The position numbers and the translations under genes are program-made. From Sporocytophaga myxococcoides DSM 11118 (GTDB lineage Bacteria; Bacteroidota; Bacteroidia; Cytophagales; Cytophagaceae), in contig NZ_KE384561.1 of NCBI RefSeq assembly GCF_000426725.1, forward strand, positions 351,092 to 415,091: DNA of 64,000 bases. Direction: 5' to 3'. Shown in pieces: positions 46,369-57,380 of the stretch (its first letter is position 1; every line of letters starts with the position of its first letter). Under the pieces are notes generated by a model. That model made no database searches and had not been told where the DNA came from. It saw only the letters and a list, made by a program, of their open reading frames with translations.

Positions 46369-47490
46369 TTAATCACCATCATTATCCGAAATAGTAACCA
46401 AAACACCAAGATCAGTTGTCATATCAACTTTAAATAAACCAACGAGTTCCAATACTTTCAAATACAGGTCCTTAACGTTTGATTGAGAAGTCTCAAGACT
46501 TGTCTGCAAAGAGGGTTCTACTCTATCTATCGCAATATAAATGCTATCAAACTGTTGTTTAATCCTAGTGCTTAATAGGACATCTTCATGCCTGGCTCCG
46601 ACATGATCGAGAAGATCTTCAATCCCAGCCAGATCTCCCTTAGGGCTTTTACCAAGGAATGCATTTTCAAGAGAAATAACATTCTCTTTAATATGACTCA
46701 GCGACATTCCGCTCTCACGAGCCTCAAGCTGACTAATTAGTGGGACTCCCATATTGTTCAATGGCTTTCCAATCTTTTTATTTTTGACAACCTCTGTGAG
46801 GTAGATCAGCTGATTAACCAACATTCCTATTGAACTATTTATACCTTTTCCATCTGAAGCTATAAACGTATTGATGTACACGGACTCCCAAAGATCAAGG
46901 ATTTGAAGAGACTTTGCTTCTAAAGCCATACATAAAGAGAGCAGGTAGCTTCTCCTGTTTTGCATTAAAGTCTCTGTTCCTCCAAACTTATCGAGAATAT
47001 AAACATTTCCTTTAGCATTGTTAAAAATAAGGTATTCAATAGCTGGAAAGCCTTTCACAGAAGCACCCTTATTGTAAATATAATTTGTATCAATTACGGA
47101 GTTAGTATTAATTGCATCTTCAATTAAAGATGTATTAACGGGCGAAAAATCAATACTGCTGTAAAGAGCTACAGACAAATCATCACCAGGACCTATTTTA
47201 TAAAGCTCACATCTCTTCCAGGCACTTGCTGATAATTTCCAGGCATCTTGCAAAGCAATCAGATTTTCTTCTGTGGGGTTAGTTACAAATTCTTCACATG
47301 CAGCCGTCATAGTATGTGAAGACTTATTCAATTCCTTATAAGAAGGTATTATAATATTTTTACCTATATTTTCCAGCATTCCTTTTCTGTCAAAGGAATT
47401 GAAAGCATCTGAAGGCTGCTGCTCTGAATCCTTTTTACATCCGGTAATAAGCAGAAATAGAAAGGGCAAAATGAATATAGTGTGTTTCAT
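46369..47490 (-). CDS. Imelysin-family lipoprotein lacking the GxHxxE histidine
   Basis: A 373-residue lipoprotein (lipobox FLLITGC, Cys18) of the imelysin/ICMP-like superfamily, with SAWKRCELYKIGP and the segment VKGFPAIEYLIFN which aligns to the family GxHxxE motif but has Pro in place of His. Imelysin proteins in Gram-negatives are linked to iron uptake as periplasmic or outer-membrane iron-binding components. It is the third gene of a minus-strand operon and starts 10 bp after the di-haem oxidoreductase ends. Loss of the histidine implies a changed metal site. Confidence 0.84.
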   Translation of the reverse strand: MKHTIFILPFLFLLITGCKKDSEQQPSDAFNSFDRKGMLENIGKNIIIPSYKELNKSSHTMTAACEEFVTNPTEENLIALQDAWKLSASAWKRCELYKIGPGDDLSVALYSSIDFSPVNTSLIEDAINTNSVIDTNYIYNKGASVKGFPAIEYLIFNNAKGNVYILDKFGGTETLMQNRRSYLLSLCMALEAKSLQILDLWESVYINTFIASDGKGINSSIGMLVNQLIYLTEVVKNKKIGKPLNNMGVPLISQLEARESGMSLSHIKENVISLENAFLGKSPKGDLAGIEDLLDHVGARHEDVLLSTRIKQQFDSIYIAIDRVEPSLQTSLETSQSNVKDLYLKVLELVGLFKVDMTTDLGVLVTISDNDGD

Positions 47491-47500
47491 TGGATAATAA

Positions 47501-48943
47501 TTAAAGAGATTCGAGAAATTCTACAAGTGCTTCCCTATCTGATTTTGACATTGCTTTGAATGCTTTCTGAGATTGCTCTGCCTCTCCTCCATGCCATAGA
47601 ATGGCTTCCTGAAAGTTTCTTGCACGGCCGTCATGAAGAAAATATGTATGCTTATTTACATTTTTAACAAGACCTATACCCCATAGCGGCGGTGTCCTCC
47701 ATTCGTTCCCGTTAGCAAGAAAATCAGGTCGACCATCCGCTAGACCCACTCCCATATCATGTAACAGCAGGTCTGTATATGGACGAATTTCCTGATTTGA
47801 CAATTCATTGACAGGACTATAGAAGCCTGTCTTCATTTTAGGTATGTGGCATTTACTGCATTTGGCTTCAGTAAATAATTGCTTTCCTCTCAACACCTTC
47901 GTATCTGTCCAGTTACGTCTTCCGGGTACGGACAAAGTGATGGTATAGTAAACTACTTTGCCAAATAGATCATCTTGAATTTCTGGTATACCGCCATTCG
48001 GCAGATTGCCATAATTCTGAAACTGAACAGGACTCATGTTTTCTTTAGGAAAAAGAGATGAGGTAATCCCCATATCACCGGAGAATGCTCCTGCAACCTG
48101 CTGTCTGATATTTGGCTGATTCGCTTTCCAGCCAAATCGCCCGAGTGTATTCTGCTTCAGAGCTTCATCCCAAACGTAGTTAGGTCTTCCCGAGATACCA
48201 TCCTTATCAGAGTCATTCTCATCTGCGTAAGATAGAATGACTGCTTCATCTACAGCTTCAAGCAAGCCCAAGCCTGGTAACTGCTGGGCTGCCCTTGGAG
48301 AGTATAATATATTTGCGCCAAGATCTCCATAATTTAACTTTATAAATTCATATAAAGGTTTCCTTAATTGATAAGCCTCTCCATCATCAAAAGTGCCATC
48401 AAGAGGAAGGTAGGTTATTTTGAATGTCCCCTCAGGAAGTACGCCGGAAATGGCATTTGGGCTAAGCTGAGTCCCATAATCAGGATGCCCAAGCGGTCCG
48501 CCATGAATGTCTGTACCCTCAATACTAAGCCTCATAAGCATAGAAACAGGATCATACCCATCGAGAGGAGGTTGCCCTCTTCCATCTTTGAAATGACATC
48601 CTGAACATGACAATGTGTTGAGCAAAGGTCCAACTCCGTCGCGACCAGCAGTTGAAGATGGTGCAATTACCCAGTTATCACGAAAGAAAGAATTGCCAAC
48701 AACAAATCTGGCATTGTCTTCTACGCTTATTCCAGGAATGGAATGGCCAAAAGCATTTTCAGTCTGATCGAAAACAGTTGCCACTCCACCAGCCAGCTCT
48801 TCACCAGCTTCTGCAGCATTTACATTGGAAGGTTCTTTATCCTTTTTACAAGAAGTGATAATAAAAAGGAAGCTAAATAAAAAAGCCGTACCAAGGAGTA
48901 ATAATCCCCTGGTGCGGCTTTTTATAATTTTCAATAAACTCAT
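47501..48943 (-). CDS. Di-haem oxidoreductase-family lipoprotein (cytochrome c peroxidase-like)
   Basis: A 480-residue lipoprotein (lipobox FIITSC followed by KKDKEP) with two c-type haem motifs, CSGCH in NTLSCSGCHFKDGRG and CSKCH in EAKCSKCHIPKM, plus LLHDMGVGLADGRPDF, as in the di-haem oxidoreductase (DUF1111) family. It probably shuttles electrons at the periplasmic face, and lies between two imelysin genes, a common Bacteroidota arrangement. The ATG at 48943 is used because the longer frame begins with TTG; it starts 1 bp after the preceding stop. Confidence 0.87.
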   Translation of the reverse strand: MSLLKIIKSRTRGLLLLGTAFLFSFLFIITSCKKDKEPSNVNAAEAGEELAGGVATVFDQTENAFGHSIPGISVEDNARFVVGNSFFRDNWVIAPSSTAGRDGVGPLLNTLSCSGCHFKDGRGQPPLDGYDPVSMLMRLSIEGTDIHGGPLGHPDYGTQLSPNAISGVLPEGTFKITYLPLDGTFDDGEAYQLRKPLYEFIKLNYGDLGANILYSPRAAQQLPGLGLLEAVDEAVILSYADENDSDKDGISGRPNYVWDEALKQNTLGRFGWKANQPNIRQQVAGAFSGDMGITSSLFPKENMSPVQFQNYGNLPNGGIPEIQDDLFGKVVYYTITLSVPGRRNWTDTKVLRGKQLFTEAKCSKCHIPKMKTGFYSPVNELSNQEIRPYTDLLLHDMGVGLADGRPDFLANGNEWRTPPLWGIGLVKNVNKHTYFLHDGRARNFQEAILWHGGEAEQSQKAFKAMSKSDREALVEFLESL

Positions 48944-48944
48944 T

Positions 48945-50132
48945 CTACTTATTAAAAGAAATTCCAAGTTTAGCTGCTATTTCTGTTATCAGATCAGCCT
49001 GTTTATATAGTGATTCTATAGCAGTCTGAATACGTTTTTTCCCCTCCGGATCAGTTATTTCCTGATCAAAAGGATGATGAATTGCATTTACACTTGTTTT
49101 GGTAGTTGCAAGCTGAGTATTCATTTTACTGCTCAGATCAACATCTTTCGCTACTATAAGTTCGTCAATGCCAGCTTTGTCAATGATAGTTCCATCTAGT
49201 TTAGTATATCTTCCATAATAAACGTTCTCAAGACCAAGAGCATCATAGATGATATCATTATGTGTATTATCGCTAAAGCATGAGTGCTCATCTTCTTGCT
49301 GTCCAGACTCCAGGGAAACCTGCATTCTTTCACCAGCCAGTTCACCACCACTTAGGCTTGCAAAACCAAACAGTATGTCTCTTAGAGATTCATCAATATT
49401 AGCTTCAAAAGATTTACGATAATTGTTAGTACCAGGTGCCCATGATTTAACTAAGTAATCAAGATCCTCCACAAGTATATCTGCAATAGTGCGAAGATAC
49501 TGAGCTCTTCTTGCCTGATTCTTAGCAGTGCCACCGACTACAAAATCAGTATATGGTCTGTTACCGGGACCATCATTGTTGAAATCCTGTCCCCATAATA
49601 AAAATTCAATTGCATGATATCCCACACTGATAGAAGTTTCAGCTGCCCCTCCTCCTTCATTTAAAGCAGTAAGATTTTCTTTGGTAAGGTCCACGCTTAA
49701 GTCATTGATGATTCCAGCATTTTCATTTCCCTCTACATAGTCAATATAAGACTCGTCCATTGGCCATGCGTTCAACAACCCTTCCACACCTGTTTCCGGA
49801 TCATCAATTGGTCCGTCATAAAAACGATATGCTTCCGTCTGAAGATATGGTACTCGTGCAGCCAACCATGCTTGTTTTGCTTCATTTAATTTCTGCGCTG
49901 AAGGCTCAGATATAAAAGCGTTGATTTTGGTTTGTAAATCCTCAGCCTTATTATATGAATCTATATAAGACGCATAAACAATCTCAGCATAGTTGTTTAC
50001 TATTTCTTGTTTTTTAGACTCTGAAGACGAAGAAGGATTTGGATCTTTATCTTTTTTACAGGATGTTGTCAAAGACAAAAGGATTGCACTAAATACAATT
50101 GGGAAGATACTTTTCGTAAAGAAGGAAAACAT
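48945..50132 (-). CDS. Imelysin-family lipoprotein with intact GxHxxE motif
   Basis: A 395-residue lipoprotein (lipobox SLTTSC, then KKDKDPNPSSSS) of the imelysin family. The motif GYHAIEFLLWGQDFNNDGPGNRPYTDF contains the GxHxxE signature and its downstream block, and FYDGPIDDPETGVEGLLNAWP is also characteristic. It is the first gene of the imelysin / di-haem oxidoreductase / imelysin operon; a -7 promoter element lies about 30 bp upstream. Predicted role: binding or handling of iron in the periplasm or at the outer membrane. ATG at 50132 is chosen over a longer frame to 50159. Confidence 0.88.
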   Translation of the reverse strand: MFSFFTKSIFPIVFSAILLSLTTSCKKDKDPNPSSSSESKKQEIVNNYAEIVYASYIDSYNKAEDLQTKINAFISEPSAQKLNEAKQAWLAARVPYLQTEAYRFYDGPIDDPETGVEGLLNAWPMDESYIDYVEGNENAGIINDLSVDLTKENLTALNEGGGAAETSISVGYHAIEFLLWGQDFNNDGPGNRPYTDFVVGGTAKNQARRAQYLRTIADILVEDLDYLVKSWAPGTNNYRKSFEANIDESLRDILFGFASLSGGELAGERMQVSLESGQQEDEHSCFSDNTHNDIIYDALGLENVYYGRYTKLDGTIIDKAGIDELIVAKDVDLSSKMNTQLATTKTSVNAIHHPFDQEITDPEGKKRIQTAIESLYKQADLITEIAAKLGISFNK

Positions 50133-50160
50133 AGGGTGCGCTAAAGTTAATTTATGCACA

Positions 50161-50305: not shown

Positions 50306-50959
50306 TTAGTTAAGTTTTAAGTCCTTGACTTTTATTGCTCCACGGAGCAATTCGATCGCACCTTCTATTTCAAGGCATTTTAAAATTCTGGAAATTACCA
50401 CCCTGGTTGTGCCCAATTCATTGGCCAGTTCCTGATGTGTAATTGAAACGATTTGTTGTTTGGTTTTAGAAGAAAGTCTAATCAGATAATCCTTTATTCT
50501 TTTATCAATACTTGAAAATGCCAGAGAATCGAATGAATCCAATAATTGTTCCTGTCTTTGCGCAAAAGTTTTAATTACAAAATCATTCCAGGAAGAATAT
50601 TTTCTTTGCCATTCATATACTTTAATTCTTGGGACAAGAATTAATTCCGATTTTTCAGAAGCCTCCATTGCGGCGTTCATTGGTGTTTGGCCATAACATG
50701 ACAATAGAGACATCATACAAGTTTCACCTTTATTTACATAATAAAGTAAAATTTCTCTGTCTTCAGTTTGACGAAAAATCCTTAAACTTCCTTCTAAAAG
50801 AATAGGTACAGAAACCAGGAAGGCGTTCTGTCTGTGGATACGATTTCCCTTTTCAAATTTTTCTATTTTAGCAGCAGCCAGTTCAACTCTTAAGTCTCGT
50901 TCAAAGAAATTAAACTGATCCTCTAATTCGATTACAGGTGTACTTAAAATTCTTTCCAT
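50306..50959 (-). CDS. Crp/Fnr family transcriptional regulator
   Basis: A 217-residue regulator with an N-terminal cyclic-nucleotide-binding-like domain (FVKGNRI-type segment RIHRQNAFLVSVPILLEGSLRIFRQ and EILLYYVNKGETCMMSL) and a C-terminal winged helix (QQIVSITHQELANELGTTRVVISRILKCLEIEGAIELLRGAI). Two cysteines occur in CMMSLLSCYG, but the N-terminal Fnr cysteine cluster is absent, so oxygen sensing through a 4Fe-4S cluster is unlikely; the effector is unknown. It lies upstream of the imelysin operon but a terminator separates them. The 420-bp region 50960-51381 upstream has no ORF or hairpin I can support. Confidence 0.87.
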   Translation of the reverse strand: MERILSTPVIELEDQFNFFERDLRVELAAAKIEKFEKGNRIHRQNAFLVSVPILLEGSLRIFRQTEDREILLYYVNKGETCMMSLLSCYGQTPMNAAMEASEKSELILVPRIKVYEWQRKYSSWNDFVIKTFAQRQEQLLDSFDSLAFSSIDKRIKDYLIRLSSKTKQQIVSITHQELANELGTTRVVISRILKCLEIEGAIELLRGAIKVKDLKLN

Positions 50960-51381
50960 AAGTCTTATTACTTAATGTTTAGGCAAAAATCTTCAGATAA
51001 AATTTAATGACTCTTTATTTAACAAATTTGAATATTCCCAGAATAGTGAACTTAATAATCCAATTATTCATTTCCGGGCTTGATTATAAACCATACTATC
51101 GAGAAGATGAGAAGAAGTCAAATTTTAGGAGAGGAAAAATTGGTTTTACAACCTTTTAGCAGCAGGTAAATTCTTTATATTTTTCGCTTAAAAGACAATA
51201 AAAACATGGCTAAAAATTCAAATTTCAACGATTATTAATTTTAAAAACATTTAAAAGACAAACTTTTTATTTATCTAACATTGGCGGATATTGATCCATT
51301 TTTTTTTCCAGGCCATCAATTATCTTTTAAAAAAATCTTATTAATTTAGCCATTACAACTTATTGTCAAACACAAAATAAT

Positions 51382-53238
51382 ATGAAAACATATTATTGGT
51401 TTTTTTGCATTTTTTTAATACAATTTTCAAATCCCCCTTTAAAGGCAGAGAAGGTATTTTTATTGACTAATAAAATTGAAGAAAAAGGAATCAGAAATGA
51501 ATATCTGGGAGTATTTGAAGATAAGACAAGCAAACTTGATATAACAGCAATTACAAGTCCTGTATATGCCGATAGTTTTAGATATCAGACTTCCGATGCG
51601 GTAAACAGTAACAAAGCTTCTTCCTATTGGCTCAGATTTTCTGTGAAAAACCTGACGAAAAATGAAAAGAACTGGCTGATTGAATTATATGACCATAACA
51701 TAAATTATATCTCATTTTATGCTCCTGATGAAAATGGACATTATCAATTGACTCAGTCAGGTAATTTGATTTCATTTAACAAACGAATGTTTTTTCATAA
51801 AAATCCTGAATTTGAATTACGGATTCCCCAGAATCAAACCTTGACTTTTTACATTCGGATAAAATCGGAAAACGAAAACAATTTAAGTCCCCAAATCAGA
51901 TCTTATAAGAAATTCATATCCTATGCTCTGGCAGAATACTATGTTTTAGGAATTTTTTATGGTATTTTAATTATGATGGCCTTGTATAATCTTCTGATGT
52001 ACATATCCATCAAAATGGGCATTTATCTTTATTATGTCTTTTATGTACTTTCATTCAGCCTCTATTCTATGTGTCAGAGTGGCTTCGCATTCCAGTATCT
52101 CTGGCCCGAAAATCCTGAATGGAATCTGTATGCCTTTAGTCTTGCTTTATATGGCATCATTACCTTCGCCCTGCTATTCATAAAAGGATTTTTAAATCTA
52201 AAAGAAACCCAACCTTTTTTTAACAAAGTAATAAACTTTGTAATAGTCATCAGAGGTTTGATATTATTATATGGTTTATTCTTCAACAGAAATATCTTAT
52301 ATGCTATTTACATTGATACTATTCCTTTTTTCCTGGCATATAAAATATCTCTTAGAAGTTATTTAAGAGGAAACAAAACTGCCTTTTTCTTGTGGGTTGC
52401 ATATACTAGCCTGTTTGCAGCATTTACAATAACAGCATTAGAAAACTATGGCTTTATCAAATCAACCATTTTCACTGTATATAGCCTGAATATTGGAATC
52501 ATTCTCGATATAATATTACTCTCCATGTCCCTGACAGACAGAATGGGCGCTGAAATCAAAATGAGGCAGGCTGCACAGAACAAGTCTATCGAAGAAATGA
52601 AAGAGAAAGAATTATTAAAGGACAAGATTAACAAAGAACTGGAAGAAAAAGTAGCACAACGAACAGAACAGCTTAAACAGGCATATGAAAGGCTTATCAA
52701 CCAGACTGAAGAAATCACGACGATGAACCTTCAGCTTGACCTTGCCAACAGGGCCCTGAAGAAAGACATGTCTGACATTGCCATGACCAGGATCATGAAA
52801 AACCAGGTGAATTTTGAAGAATTTGTTAAAGTATATCCTGATGAGCTTACCTGTTTCAGATATCTGGAAGAACTTAAAGGTCAATCCAAATTTCAATGCA
52901 AAAAATGTAATTCTAATAGTTGCGGCAAGGGCAAAGAGCAATTTGACAGACGTTGCAGCAAATGTGGTTACAATGAATCAGTCACTGCAAATACGATCTT
53001 TCACAAACTTAAATTTCCGATAGTAAAAGCATTTTACATCATGTATCTTGTTTCCAACAAACAAGATATCACTTCAGACGAATTATCCGAAATGCTATCT
53101 TTAAGAAAATCTACTTGCTCAAATTTCAAGAAAAAAATTAAGGACAGAATTAAAGTACTTGATAAAAAAGAATTTAGCGGATGGAATTCCCTTGTAGTGG
53201 ACAGCACAATAGAAAGCATCACTCACACTACTGATTAA
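51382..53238 (+). CDS. 7TM-DISM receptor fused to an IS1595-type transposase zinc-ribbon/HTH domain
   Basis: A 618-residue chimeric protein. Residues 1-22 are a signal peptide; 30-170 form the periplasmic 7TMR-DISMED2 sensory domain (SYWLRFSVKNLTKNEKNWLIEL); about 180-385 carry the seven-helix 7TM-DISM region; 395-465 form a coiled coil (EEKVAQRTEQLKQAYERL). From about 477 the sequence changes to the N-terminal part of an IS1595-type transposase: FEEFVKVYPDELTCFRYLEEL, a zinc ribbon with CKKC (506, 509) and CSKC (525, 528), TANTIFHKLKFPIVKAFYIMYLVS and a helix-turn-helix to about 590. No DDE catalytic domain follows, so DNA binding without transposition is expected. Both parts fit their families well. 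Confidence 0.82.
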   Translation: MKTYYWFFCIFLIQFSNPPLKAEKVFLLTNKIEEKGIRNEYLGVFEDKTSKLDITAITSPVYADSFRYQTSDAVNSNKASSYWLRFSVKNLTKNEKNWLIELYDHNINYISFYAPDENGHYQLTQSGNLISFNKRMFFHKNPEFELRIPQNQTLTFYIRIKSENENNLSPQIRSYKKFISYALAEYYVLGIFYGILIMMALYNLLMYISIKMGIYLYYVFYVLSFSLYSMCQSGFAFQYLWPENPEWNLYAFSLALYGIITFALLFIKGFLNLKETQPFFNKVINFVIVIRGLILLYGLFFNRNILYAIYIDTIPFFLAYKISLRSYLRGNKTAFFLWVAYTSLFAAFTITALENYGFIKSTIFTVYSLNIGIILDIILLSMSLTDRMGAEIKMRQAAQNKSIEEMKEKELLKDKINKELEEKVAQRTEQLKQAYERLINQTEEITTMNLQLDLANRALKKDMSDIAMTRIMKNQVNFEEFVKVYPDELTCFRYLEELKGQSKFQCKKCNSNSCGKGKEQFDRRCSKCGYNESVTANTIFHKLKFPIVKAFYIMYLVSNKQDITSDELSEMLSLRKSTCSNFKKKIKDRIKVLDKKEFSGWNSLVVDSTIESITHTTD

Positions 53239-53762: not shown

Positions 53763-56141
53763 ATGGAACTTTTAATTTTTATTGGACTACTGATAATCAT
53801 CATATTGCTAATCAGGCAGAACAGTTTAGTCGATAGTAAACTCAATGAATTGTCAAAAAAAATTGATGGTCTGAAAAATGAAATTAAAAAACTTTCAGTC
53901 ACTGAACCTAGGCCTTCTAAGTCTGCTGAGAAGAAAGACGAATCGATATTATCACAAATACTTAATCTTGACAACCCTAAACAGGAGCCCGTTAAGATTA
54001 CCGAACCCAAAATTGAATCCCAAGCTAAGGAACAAGAACCTGTAAAAAAACAAGTTCCTGTCCTATCTCCTGCAAAAGCCGTTTCTTCTGCAAAACCAAA
54101 AGAGAAAAAACCTACCTTCTTTGAAAGAAATCCGGACATTGAAAAATTTATCGGTGAAAATCTCATCAATAAAATTGGTATTGCCATACTAGTTTTAGGA
54201 ATTGGATTTTTTGTAAAATATGCAATAGACCAAAACTGGATACATGAAATCGGTAGAGTATTTATAGGAATACTTTGTGGAGGAATATTGCTAGGACTTG
54301 CACATAAAATGCGTAAGACATTTGCAGCCTTCAGCTCCGTACTGATAGGCGGAGGAATGTCTATATTTTACTTCACCATATCAATAGCATTCCATGAGTA
54401 CAATTTATTCAGCCAGACAGCAGCATTCCTGATAATGGTTGTGATAACGGGATTTTCAGTACTATTTTCAATAACCTATAACAGAAAAGAACTAGCAGTA
54501 CTTGCTATTATAGGAGGCTTTGCTTCTCCCTTCATGGTAAGCACAGGAGAAGGTAATTACATCATCCTTTTCACCTATATCATCACGTTAAATACCGGCA
54601 TGCTGGTTTTGGCTTATTTTAAAGGCTGGAAGATTCTGAATATTATCTCTTACCTCTTCACTATAGTGCTTTATGGAGGCTGGCTGATAACCAAAGTAAA
54701 AGGTATTCCTGACGCGCCGTATACCGGCGCCATGGTATTTGCCACACTCTTTTATCTGATATTCTTCCTTATGAATATCATTAATAATATAAAAGAAAAT
54801 AAAAAATTCGCAGCAATAGATATCAGTATCTTATTGAGCAATACATTCCTTTATTACACAGCTGGTATGATCATACTTGCCAATATTAAAGGAGGAATGT
54901 TCCAGGGATTATTCACAGCAGTGATCGCAATTTTCAATTTTATTTTTGCATTCACATTGTATAAAACCAAAAAAGCCGACACTAACCTTATTTATTTACT
55001 TATAGGTCTTGTCCTTACATTCCTAAGTCTTGCTGCTCCTGTTCAGTTGGAAGGGAACTATATTACACTATTCTGGTCTGCTGAAGCAGTGCTTCTGTTA
55101 TGGCTATCTCAAAAATCGGGGATAACACTTATTAAAGTAGGATCTTTAGCTGTAACTGTTCTTATGCTTGTAAGTCTGATAATGGACTGGATAAGCATCT
55201 ATGACCGAAATTTTTCTGAAACAATCATTTTAAACAAAGGATTTATCACAAGTATTATAGCTCTTACTTCTCTAATCCTTACAAGATTATTACTAAAGAA
55301 AGAAACTGCGACAAGTATAATTTTCCTTCCGGTTAAATATTATGACAAAGCACTGGGCACTATATTTCTGACTTTATTATATTTTGCAGGTTTCCTTGAA
55401 CTTCATTATCAATTATTAAACCACATATCAATTGGCAGCTTGAGGGCTATCATTACCGGGAGCTATAATTTCATGTTTGTACTTTCCCTCTTGCTATTAG
55501 ACCAAAAAGACACATCAAGGGTATCGATGATCAGGACACTCGTTCTGGGATTATTGTCAAGCATCTTCTACATGACTTATTATCATCAAGAAATCATCAA
55601 ACTGAGAGAAGCGTATCTGATAGCTCAAAGTACAACTTTCCTCAGCTTTACTTACCAATACATTGACACATTGCTGTTCACAGGCATATTAGTTTTAATG
55701 TACCGAAAAGTCAAATCTGTGTTTGGCTTTAAAGTGATTACTGGAAAGCTCTTCCTATGGTATCTTTCATTTGTTGCACTTTTCATTCTAAGCAGTGAAC
55801 TGGACCATGTTGTACTTTTCATTTTCTATAAAGAAATGCAAGGAGCGAGCTATATAATCAGTCAGAACCACAAAATAGGATATCCTATCCTGTGGGGCTT
55901 GAGCTCCCTTGTATTTATGGTTCTTGGGATGAAGAAAAAAAGAAAGGAACTCCGTATTATTTCTCTGACAACATTCTTTATCACTCTGCTTAAGTTATTT
56001 ATATTCGACTTAAGAGGTATTTCAGAAGGAGGGAAAATTGCCTCATTTATCTGTCTGGGAGTTCTATTATTAGTAATTTCATTTATGTATCAAAAGCTTA
56101 AAAAGCTAATCATAGATGATGAAACAACTATTGCTTCATAA
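53763..56141 (+). CDS. DUF2339 polytopic membrane protein
   Basis: A 792-residue protein: an N-terminal anchor, a charged coiled/linker segment (residues 20-130, with a Pro/Lys/Glu-rich stretch) and about two dozen hydrophobic helices. The block NLINKIGIAILVLGIGFFVKYAIDQNWI (from about 135) is the DUF2339 signature. Function unknown; in Bacteroidota it pairs with DUF3999 proteins, as here with a 6-bp gap, suggesting one complex or pathway at the inner membrane. The start ATG directly opens the anchor helix. Confidence 0.87.
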   Translation: MELLIFIGLLIIIILLIRQNSLVDSKLNELSKKIDGLKNEIKKLSVTEPRPSKSAEKKDESILSQILNLDNPKQEPVKITEPKIESQAKEQEPVKKQVPVLSPAKAVSSAKPKEKKPTFFERNPDIEKFIGENLINKIGIAILVLGIGFFVKYAIDQNWIHEIGRVFIGILCGGILLGLAHKMRKTFAAFSSVLIGGGMSIFYFTISIAFHEYNLFSQTAAFLIMVVITGFSVLFSITYNRKELAVLAIIGGFASPFMVSTGEGNYIILFTYIITLNTGMLVLAYFKGWKILNIISYLFTIVLYGGWLITKVKGIPDAPYTGAMVFATLFYLIFFLMNIINNIKENKKFAAIDISILLSNTFLYYTAGMIILANIKGGMFQGLFTAVIAIFNFIFAFTLYKTKKADTNLIYLLIGLVLTFLSLAAPVQLEGNYITLFWSAEAVLLLWLSQKSGITLIKVGSLAVTVLMLVSLIMDWISIYDRNFSETIILNKGFITSIIALTSLILTRLLLKKETATSIIFLPVKYYDKALGTIFLTLLYFAGFLELHYQLLNHISIGSLRAIITGSYNFMFVLSLLLLDQKDTSRVSMIRTLVLGLLSSIFYMTYYHQEIIKLREAYLIAQSTTFLSFTYQYIDTLLFTGILVLMYRKVKSVFGFKVITGKLFLWYLSFVALFILSSELDHVVLFIFYKEMQGASYIISQNHKIGYPILWGLSSLVFMVLGMKKKRKELRIISLTTFFITLLKLFIFDLRGISEGGKIASFICLGVLLLVISFMYQKLKKLIIDDETTIAS

Positions 56142-56147
56142 TTAAAT

Positions 56148-57380
56148 ATGAAAAAATTATTTTTGTATAACATACTATTCTTCTTTATTGCTACATGCTC
56201 TTATGGACAAGCATTTAAGAAGAAGGCTTTATTAAGTAAAGTAAACGAAAGCAGGTTCTATAAAATTCCGATAACTCCTGATATCGTGACTCATCTTAAT
56301 GATGATCTTTCGGATATAAGAATTTATGATAATACCCAAAAGGAGATTCCTTATATTTTAAGCAGAGAAGTACCTCTTCAGGTACATCAGATATTCAAAG
56401 AATACAACATCAAAGAATTCAGATCACAATCAAAATGTTGTTCCAGACTGATACTTCAGAATGCTGCAAAAAACAAAATTGATAACATTAGCCTGATCAT
56501 TAAAAATTCTGATGTAAGGAAGAATGCAAAGCTTAGCGGTAGCAGTGACAATAAACACTGGTATATCATCAAGAACGACTATTATCTTGAATCCTATCCA
56601 TCACTGAATAATACTTCAGAAGTTAAACTTCTTAACTTTCCTTTGTTAGATTATGAGTACTACATGCTTGAAATCGGAGATTCAGGTAGCGCTCCTCTTA
56701 ACATATTAAAAGCTGGATATTATGACACCTATATAGAAAAAGGAAAGTTTACAGAACTTCCCAAGGCCCATGTACATAGGAAAGACAGCTCTGATAAGAA
56801 AAGTTATATTTCTATCTCTTTTCCTTCAGCTCAGTTGATAGATAAAGTAAAAATTGCTGCATTAGAGCCTCATTATTACTTCAGAAACGCGGCAATATGC
56901 ACCACCTATTACGAAAAAGGAAAGAAACATTATAACACTATCACTACTACTACTCTCCGCTCAAACAGCGATAACACCATTGAATTGGACCATCTGAAAG
57001 TTAAAGATTTCCAACTGATTATTGATAACCAAGACAACCAGCCATTAAAAATAAAAAGCATAGAAAGCTATCAACTTGTATATTACATGACTGCTATGCT
57101 TGAGAGAGGAAAATCGTATACAATTCAATTCGGAGATAAAAATTTATCTTATCCTCAATATGATCTAGGTTATTTTAAAGACAGCATTCCGGAAAATCTG
57201 AGTATTATAAAAGCCGGAGCCATCCTTGATATTCCCCAACAAATCGAAAAACCTGAGAAAACATTTTTCTCTTCAATGCTTTGGGTCTGGATTTCCATAT
57301 TTCTTATAATGTCAGGTCTTGGGTATATGTCTTATAAAATGATAAAAGAAATGAAAACCAAGCAAACGACTGACACCTAA
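56148..57380 (+). CDS. DUF3999-like periplasmic protein with C-terminal membrane helix
   Basis: A 410-residue protein with a signal peptide ending SYGQA, a long beta-rich periplasmic region (FYKIPITPDIVTHLNDDLSDIRIYDN, IPYILSREVP, LSGSSDNKHWYII) and a C-terminal transmembrane helix near 378-398. The pattern fits DUF3999, and the 6-bp spacing from the DUF2339 gene, its usual partner, supports that. Function unknown. Confidence 0.78.
   Translation: MKKLFLYNILFFFIATCSYGQAFKKKALLSKVNESRFYKIPITPDIVTHLNDDLSDIRIYDNTQKEIPYILSREVPLQVHQIFKEYNIKEFRSQSKCCSRLILQNAAKNKIDNISLIIKNSDVRKNAKLSGSSDNKHWYIIKNDYYLESYPSLNNTSEVKLLNFPLLDYEYYMLEIGDSGSAPLNILKAGYYDTYIEKGKFTELPKAHVHRKDSSDKKSYISISFPSAQLIDKVKIAALEPHYYFRNAAICTTYYEKGKKHYNTITTTTLRSNSDNTIELDHLKVKDFQLIIDNQDNQPLKIKSIESYQLVYYMTAMLERGKSYTIQFGDKNLSYPQYDLGYFKDSIPENLSIIKAGAILDIPQQIEKPEKTFFSSMLWVWISIFLIMSGLGYMSYKMIKEMKTKQTTDT

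Follow-up and report, generated by a model that had tools for sequence, protein, structure and literature searches.

The window analysed here, a stretch of 64,000 nucleotides from the genome of Sporocytophaga myxococcoides DSM 11118 (contig NZ_KE384561.1, positions 351,092 to 415,091), contains a gene whose product joins a membrane receptor to what would be the DNA-binding part of an IS1595-type transposase. The gene, the regions of its product and its two neighbours are given below in window coordinates:

51382-53238, + strand: fusion receptor gene, 618 aa, a single open frame from ATG to TAA
51382-51447, + strand: signal peptide region, aa about 1-22 (model helix 2-16; putative extent and cleavage)
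51499-51897, + strand: 7TMR-DISMED2 domain, predicted to be periplasmic, aa 40-172 (Pfam E 3e-29; model strands)
51934-52542, + strand: 7TMR-DISM_7TM domain, aa 185-387 (Pfam E 2e-44; model helices; hydropathy)
52543-52800, + strand: signalling helix or coiled coil, aa 388-473, continuing TM7 (model helix 368-473)
52837-52971, + strand: IS1595-type zinc ribbon, aa 486-530, with Cys 506, 509, 525 and 528 (family-level matches)
53020-53157, + strand: tri-helical HTH, aa 547-592 (models; profile match to the transposases considered here)
50306-50959, - strand: divergent Crp/Fnr-like regulator gene, a possible target (HTH_Crp_2 E 3e-13)
53763-56141, + strand: downstream DUF2339 gene (DUF2339 E 5.5e-78)

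A first-pass annotation, made from the letters alone, had described this succession of domains, which is now borne out by Pfam for DISMED2 and 7TM and by structural models for the rest. Indeed, the AlphaFold2 model of the full-length protein (80 rows; mean pLDDT 85, pTM 0.66) presents, in this order, an N-terminal helix, strands, the membrane helices, a helix running from TM7 to aa 473, the ribbon and the HTH, with pLDDT below 50 at aa 456-470, within the long helix. Modelled alone, the C-terminal domain reaches a pLDDT of 87.6 and a pTM of 0.80; the two predictions give a good model, in which the helix continuous with TM7 is followed by the zinc ribbon and the HTH. Among the Pfam matches listed for the window protein, none is to a histidine kinase, a receiver or an AraC domain. 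Furthermore, all 85 aligned proteins have the four cysteines at 506, 509, 525 and 528 and also N449, L452 and L459 of the signalling helix, where N456 is nearly invariant; the HTH positions of the C-terminal domain are strongly conserved.

The same build is found in five proteins of this genome, the window member included, and copies at 90-95% identity exist in three genomes of the same genus. When named genomes were scanned with the C-terminal domain, 149 places were confirmed; the analyses described here use the best 80 of these 149 (the named loci). All 80 are Bacteroidota by title and represent more than a dozen named genera, among them Sporocytophaga, Fulvivirga, Roseivirga, Pedobacter, Mucilaginibacter and Algoriphagus; in every one the domain has 324 residues or more in front of it, and from its start the protein continues for 137-164 aa. 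The prediction that relatives would carry the same fusion was thus confirmed. Because the five proteins and the best 80 of the 149 places all have this output following a long receptor, the gene is no sequencing chimera; together with the 90-95% copies in three further genomes, they rule out a frameshift origin too, and make it exceedingly improbable that an annotation artefact fused a receptor gene to an insertion-sequence remnant.

At a wider scale, a search with the full protein gave some match in 34 of 39 genomes (own included), a figure in which plain 7TMR-DISM proteins are counted too. A survey of 395 genomes of the phylum, with ten candidates scored in each, found at least 58 matching the domain at E<=1e-6, and frames of at least 590 aa in at least 11 of the 395 (own included), nine from the own order and two from the own class. 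The window's genome also encodes five 7TMR-DISM proteins with a C-terminal part recognised by eye as a histidine kinase (L006, L007, L008, L015, L016).

It is at this family level that the assignment of the ribbon holds. On the window protein alone, the Zn_ribbon_IS1595 model gives E 0.25 and 11.8 bits where the cut-off is 25.4, which is not significant, and E 0.086 on its C-terminal part alone, a match that is no more than suggestive for this protein taken singly. Among the other fusions of the genome, L014 exceeds the cut-off (27.6 bits, E 3e-6) and three more score 19.0-22.1 bits, below it. Pfam and NCBIfam scans, which covered all the named fusions but L039 (79 of 80, with L039 submitted to Pfam separately), recovered 7TM in 79 of 79, DISMED2 in 78, the zinc ribbon in 74 and the NCBIfam IS1595 transposase model in 67, the last two counts resting on E<=0.01 and not on curated cut-offs.

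The profile of the output domain also matches IS1595-DDE proteins across both ribbon and HTH (L155, 148 bits; L157, 146 bits), and in these two the DDE is over its cut-off. The fusion has no such catalytic part, as had been noticed initially: PF12762 has one match in the genome, and it lies on another contig. A tree of 126 domains and 148 columns was built after merging identical domains and then leaving out three short rows. One of its branches (100/96) gathers 90 fusions of 7TM length (79 named, five from the own genome and six found in the survey of the phylum) together with four of Reg_prop length and one short stand-alone protein, these labels being given by length, with a Pfam scan behind all but six of the 90 and three of the four; the transposases fall on the opposite side of this branch. 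Such a grouping of the fusions beside IS1595-type transposases points to a single capture, well supported and yet not proven, given the midpoint rooting, the few columns and the long branches. Judging from sequence, then, the output would be the DNA-binding domain of an IS1595-type transposase, captured once, and the profile matches, the tree, the lack of DDE and the model with ribbon and HTH all agree with the capture that had been proposed.

The same output also occurs behind a Reg_prop receptor, in L039 by Pfam and in L163-L165 by eye. Reg_prop/Y_Y_Y sensors are usual in HTCS. The Reg_prop fusions are nested inside the fusion branch, where three of them join a 7TM fusion in one group (95/83), a pattern suggestive of a transfer of the output domain between receptor types.

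Some other proteins carry related domains. In genome G352, ten domain matches have open frames of about 310-340 aa; in three of these copies (L159, L160, L161) the first DDE motif appears degenerate by eye and the N-terminal domain is near that of the fusions, and they are possibly another domesticated set. Stand-alone zinc ribbon-HTH proteins without DDE exist as well, one of 137 aa (L168:998-1408, - strand) that groups with the fusion branch and one of 143 aa in the window's own genome (L009:6649-7080, - strand).

Alternatively, the C-terminal part could serve as a zinc-bound dimerisation or protein-interaction module devoid of DNA binding. The domain is divergent, the ribbon score of the window member is weak, and neither sequence nor fold searches yield a clear solved relative: Foldseek gave no match at E<=0.001, a PDB sequence search returned three matches at E 0.095 or worse, none of them useful, and VIA-align 2 proposed at best a homeodomain (Z 4.2, rmsd 4.5 over 60 residues, which is low), with the Tc3 DNA-binding domain at Z 3.1 (rmsd 3.4 over 48 residues). 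Nevertheless, the strong conservation of the cysteine and HTH positions, and the fact that many genes of the family adjoin a conserved long-spaced repeat, make this alternative quite improbable.

The genomic context of the fusions was examined by clustering with BLAST the flanking ORFs of at least 90 aa. In 39 of the 80 named loci the fusion gene is directly followed, on its own strand, by a gene of the SusC cluster, at gaps of 215-638 nt, and in 32 loci a SusD-cluster gene then follows. Altogether, the flanks of the 80 loci hold 45 SusC-cluster ORFs downstream on the same strand, six upstream, and none downstream on the opposite strand. One of the 39 SusC-cluster genes was checked by model and corresponds to TIGR04056 (804 bits). 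By chance, a same-strand susC start within 700 bp would be met in about 1% of cases, an estimate based on first-look susC candidates (50-265 per genome, with about 26 scored per genome) and so not an exact base rate. The Reg_prop fusion L039 also precedes a SusC gene. At L079 and L081, divergent SusC-cluster genes lie 251-317 nt upstream of the fusion gene, and the regulator may therefore also serve divergent operons.

Carbohydrate genes are also met at some of the loci that have no SusC or SusD in the flanks. Named glycoside hydrolases (GH97, GH18, GH16, GH5, GH3, GH95, GH8) adjoin at least 8 of the 33 loci of this kind, and the own-genome paralog L010 has a GH3 neighbour. A tally of 94 neighbours (94 of 147 ORFs, from 27 of the 33 loci, six Sporocytophaga loci being left out, with 25 of 90 families shown) counted GH18 in five, GH5 in four, and GH97, GH3, GH8, GH95, GH2, CBM6 and PL14 in two each; these are raw counts, several of which come from related loci. 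The neighbours of the window gene itself are not carbohydrate genes, and the susCD linkage is absent from its locus.

The gaps between fusion and susC genes show recurring blocks when aligned clade by clade. A motif search in the 39 gaps found the repeat TTGnnnTTnAAGCGTAtcA, and the de novo motif, ATTGTTTTTTAAGCGTAATA, gathers 73 sites with a score of 1147, against 596-645 in six dinucleotide-shuffled sets. A pair was defined as two sites on the same strand, 60-82 bp apart, each half reaching at least 5 bits, the distance window having been chosen once the de novo spacings were known. Under this definition 31 of the 39 gaps hold a pair (22.9-41.6 bits), with a spacing of 64-66 bp in 17 and of 76-79 bp in 14, though these 31 gaps trained the matrix and close relatives are numerous among the 39 loci. 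In L036 and L080, which belong to the 31, the pair lies below 24.1 bits, the maximum attained in 123 shuffles of the 41 other fusion loci, and L067 stays outside the 31 with its two best sites 90 bp apart. In Pedobacter-type gaps (for example L068 and L065), a possible third conserved element similar to ATCATAATCA can be seen by eye between the repeats, and it may go with the longer spacing of 76-79 bp.

Control regions of about 2.5 kb upstream of 40 other susC genes, taken from 15 of 18 genomes and in which no fusion domain was found, hold a pair in 8 of 40 cases, at best with 22.1 bits. Since none of the 40 reaches 22.2 bits, the paired motif would not be a general susC element. Beyond the training gaps, three of the 41 other fusion loci, all from Pedobacter, exceed all 123 shuffles: in L066 (39.0 bits) and L042 (36.6 bits) the pair precedes a SusC gene further on, and in L052 (35.4 bits) the fusion gene itself. 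Pair scores in the remaining 38 do not exceed the shuffles, and the intergenic regions scanned at four own-genome paralogs hold no pair under the 5-bit floor. When the matrix was trained on Pedobacter-type gaps only, 11 of the 23 other gaps outscored 99% of shuffles, and in nine of these the pair had the spacing of its clade; the reverse training recovered 9 of 16 held-out gaps, eight at the clade spacing. A motif-free repeat test, which is a weak one, singled out 8 of the 39 susC gaps at no more than 1 of 100 shuffles and none of 57 other intergenic regions at no more than 2 of 200.

A genome-wide search with a short pattern was unspecific on its own, the backward pattern giving similar counts. 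Three picks made from it by eye in two Pedobacter genomes score 34-38 bits with the matrix, and four control matches from the same search hold no pair of 24 bits or more. The pair at L240 stands before SusC-SusD on a contig other than that of the known fusion gene, whereas the fusion gene is only about 15 kb away for the pair at L239, which precedes a GH3-GH2-alginate-lyase run, and about 12 kb away for that at L241, which precedes a GH9 gene. The idea that the motif could be a memory of transposon ends was discarded, the end TAGGATTACCCATTTA of the related G003 element (L155:1071-2061) being unlike it.

The paired motif may instead belong to another regulator acting on these operons, such as an HTCS or a Crp-like protein, or to some promoter element, in which case the fusion would act elsewhere or otherwise. 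The L240 pair, on a contig other than that of the known fusion gene, and the fusion loci that have no pair are in line with this view. Against it, the pair occupies the gap straight after the fusion gene in 31 of 39 loci, control susC regions of 15 genomes lack it at 22.2 bits, and distant sites are what a regulon would also produce; we consider this explanation rather unlikely.

We regard it as likely that the family comprises membrane-tethered one-component regulators of glycan use, whose transposase-derived domain binds paired repeats near the targets. The computed support consists of the architecture, the transposase ancestry, the single origin, the neighbouring SusC/SusD and CAZyme genes, and the motif that recurs in pairs at a fixed spacing. 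The early proposal that the transposase-type domain serves as the output of a membrane receptor gains from the same neighbours and motif, as well as from the conserved architecture and the second receptor type. In the mechanism that we propose, the periplasmic DISMED2 domain would sense a ligand, presumably an oligosaccharide or a related compound, and the seven-helix region and the single long helix, in the topology suggested by the model, would relay the change to the cytosol. There, the ribbon, holding zinc, and the HTH would bind two long-spaced direct repeats near target promoters, the commonest of which would be that of the adjacent susCD glycan-uptake operon, and would activate rather than repress it, with no proteolytic release.

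Release of the DNA-binding part by cleavage in the linker at aa 456-470 could be imagined from the model, whose pLDDT drops there. However, this stretch holds the nearly invariant N456 and the invariant L459, and SusR is described, in the available text of PMC3878776, as a membrane protein that binds promoters; we therefore hold such a cleavage to be doubtful and retain the tethered regulator.

The tethered regulator has counterparts among known systems. According to the available text of PMC3878776, SusR sits in the membrane and combines a sensor in the periplasm with a cytosolic DNA-binding domain unlike other known ones; some SusR-like regulators are linked to susCD and their predicted sites are long-spaced direct repeats; HTCS are membrane sensors linked to susCD; and three types of regulators have been proposed for the polysaccharide utilisation loci of Bacteroides. 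By comparison, this SusR-like layout and the long-spaced direct repeats make a tethered one-component regulator acting on two repeats the simplest account. The fusions share with the SusR-like proteins of Bacteroides the membrane sensor and, as predicted, a cytosolic DNA-binding domain; a link to susCD is seen at 39 of the 80 named loci and not at the window locus. They differ from these proteins, as far as SusR is described there, in having a 7TMR-DISM sensor and an output of IS1595 transposase type. With HTCS, as this source presents them, they share a membrane sensor, linked to susCD at some loci and in L039 of the Reg_prop/Y_Y_Y type, whereas the Pfam matches listed for the window protein, L039 and the tally of 79 relatives contain no histidine kinase, receiver or AraC domain.

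The 7TMR-DISM receptors with a kinase output have the same sensor and 7TM region, the output being in the fusion a transposase-type DNA-binding domain. In turn, IS1595-family transposases have the same N-terminal zinc ribbon and HTH, which in the fusion are placed behind a receptor and without DDE. FHY3/FAR1 and other eukaryotic factors also use an exapted transposase DNA-binding domain, in the accounts available, and the fusion differs from these in being bacterial, membrane-bound and joined to a sensor. For a 7TMR-DISM-GGDEF protein, the available part of PMC5342196 claims sugar hydrolysis. The terms "7TM", "transposase" and "SusR" are absent from the portion of PMC10766802 that could be consulted, and a literature search, with most subscription papers outside its reach, found no report of a receptor-transposase-domain fusion. 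The membrane one-component regulator of glycan use is a known kind; what appears to be new is the output, together with its origin, and the operator.

If this is true, the family would add a type of regulator to the three proposed for the Bacteroides polysaccharide utilisation loci, and would show that, in bacteria too, the DNA-binding domain of a transposase has been turned into a receptor output. Moreover, the motif could allow some glycan regulons of Cytophagales and Sphingobacteriales to be read from sequence, and with operators that differ between clades, specificity could be probed by exchanging domains.

At the window locus, two half-sites of a possible operator lie between the fusion gene and the divergent Crp/Fnr-like gene:

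51180-51199, - strand: proximal half-site, ATTGTCTTTTAAGCGAAAAA (17.6 bits with the matrix from 39 other loci)
51243-51262, - strand: distal half-site, TTTGTCTTTTAAATGTTTTT (4.7 bits alone)

The two are 63 bp apart, just outside the 64-66 and 76-79 bp classes, and together score 22.2 bits, a value reached in none of 300 shuffles; under the 5-bit floor applied to the other loci the pair fails, on account of its distal half. With 50-90 bp allowed, another pair, 52 bp apart, is the best one at 23.7 bits, and the motif-free test of this upstream region is not significant (83 of 200 shuffles). Both half-sites are identical in three Sporocytophaga sequences, the whole region being 94% identical on average. 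Their orientation, facing the Crp-like gene, suggests this gene as the target, and on these sequence grounds it would be the best candidate, the target of the window member being unsure; it is also possible that the receptor regulates itself. Behind the Crp/Fnr-like gene, at 46369-50159 (- strand), stand three lipoprotein-like genes, by eye a di-haem-cytochrome-like one between two imelysin-like ones, a set that looks like an iron-related operon. On the other side, at 53763-57380 (+ strand), the DUF2339 membrane protein is followed by a protein weakly similar to DUF3999 (below the cut-off). These neighbours are also met next to the receptor gene in L017 and L018, where the counterpart of the DUF2339 gene is of similar size, belongs to one cluster and has a DNA start that aligns.
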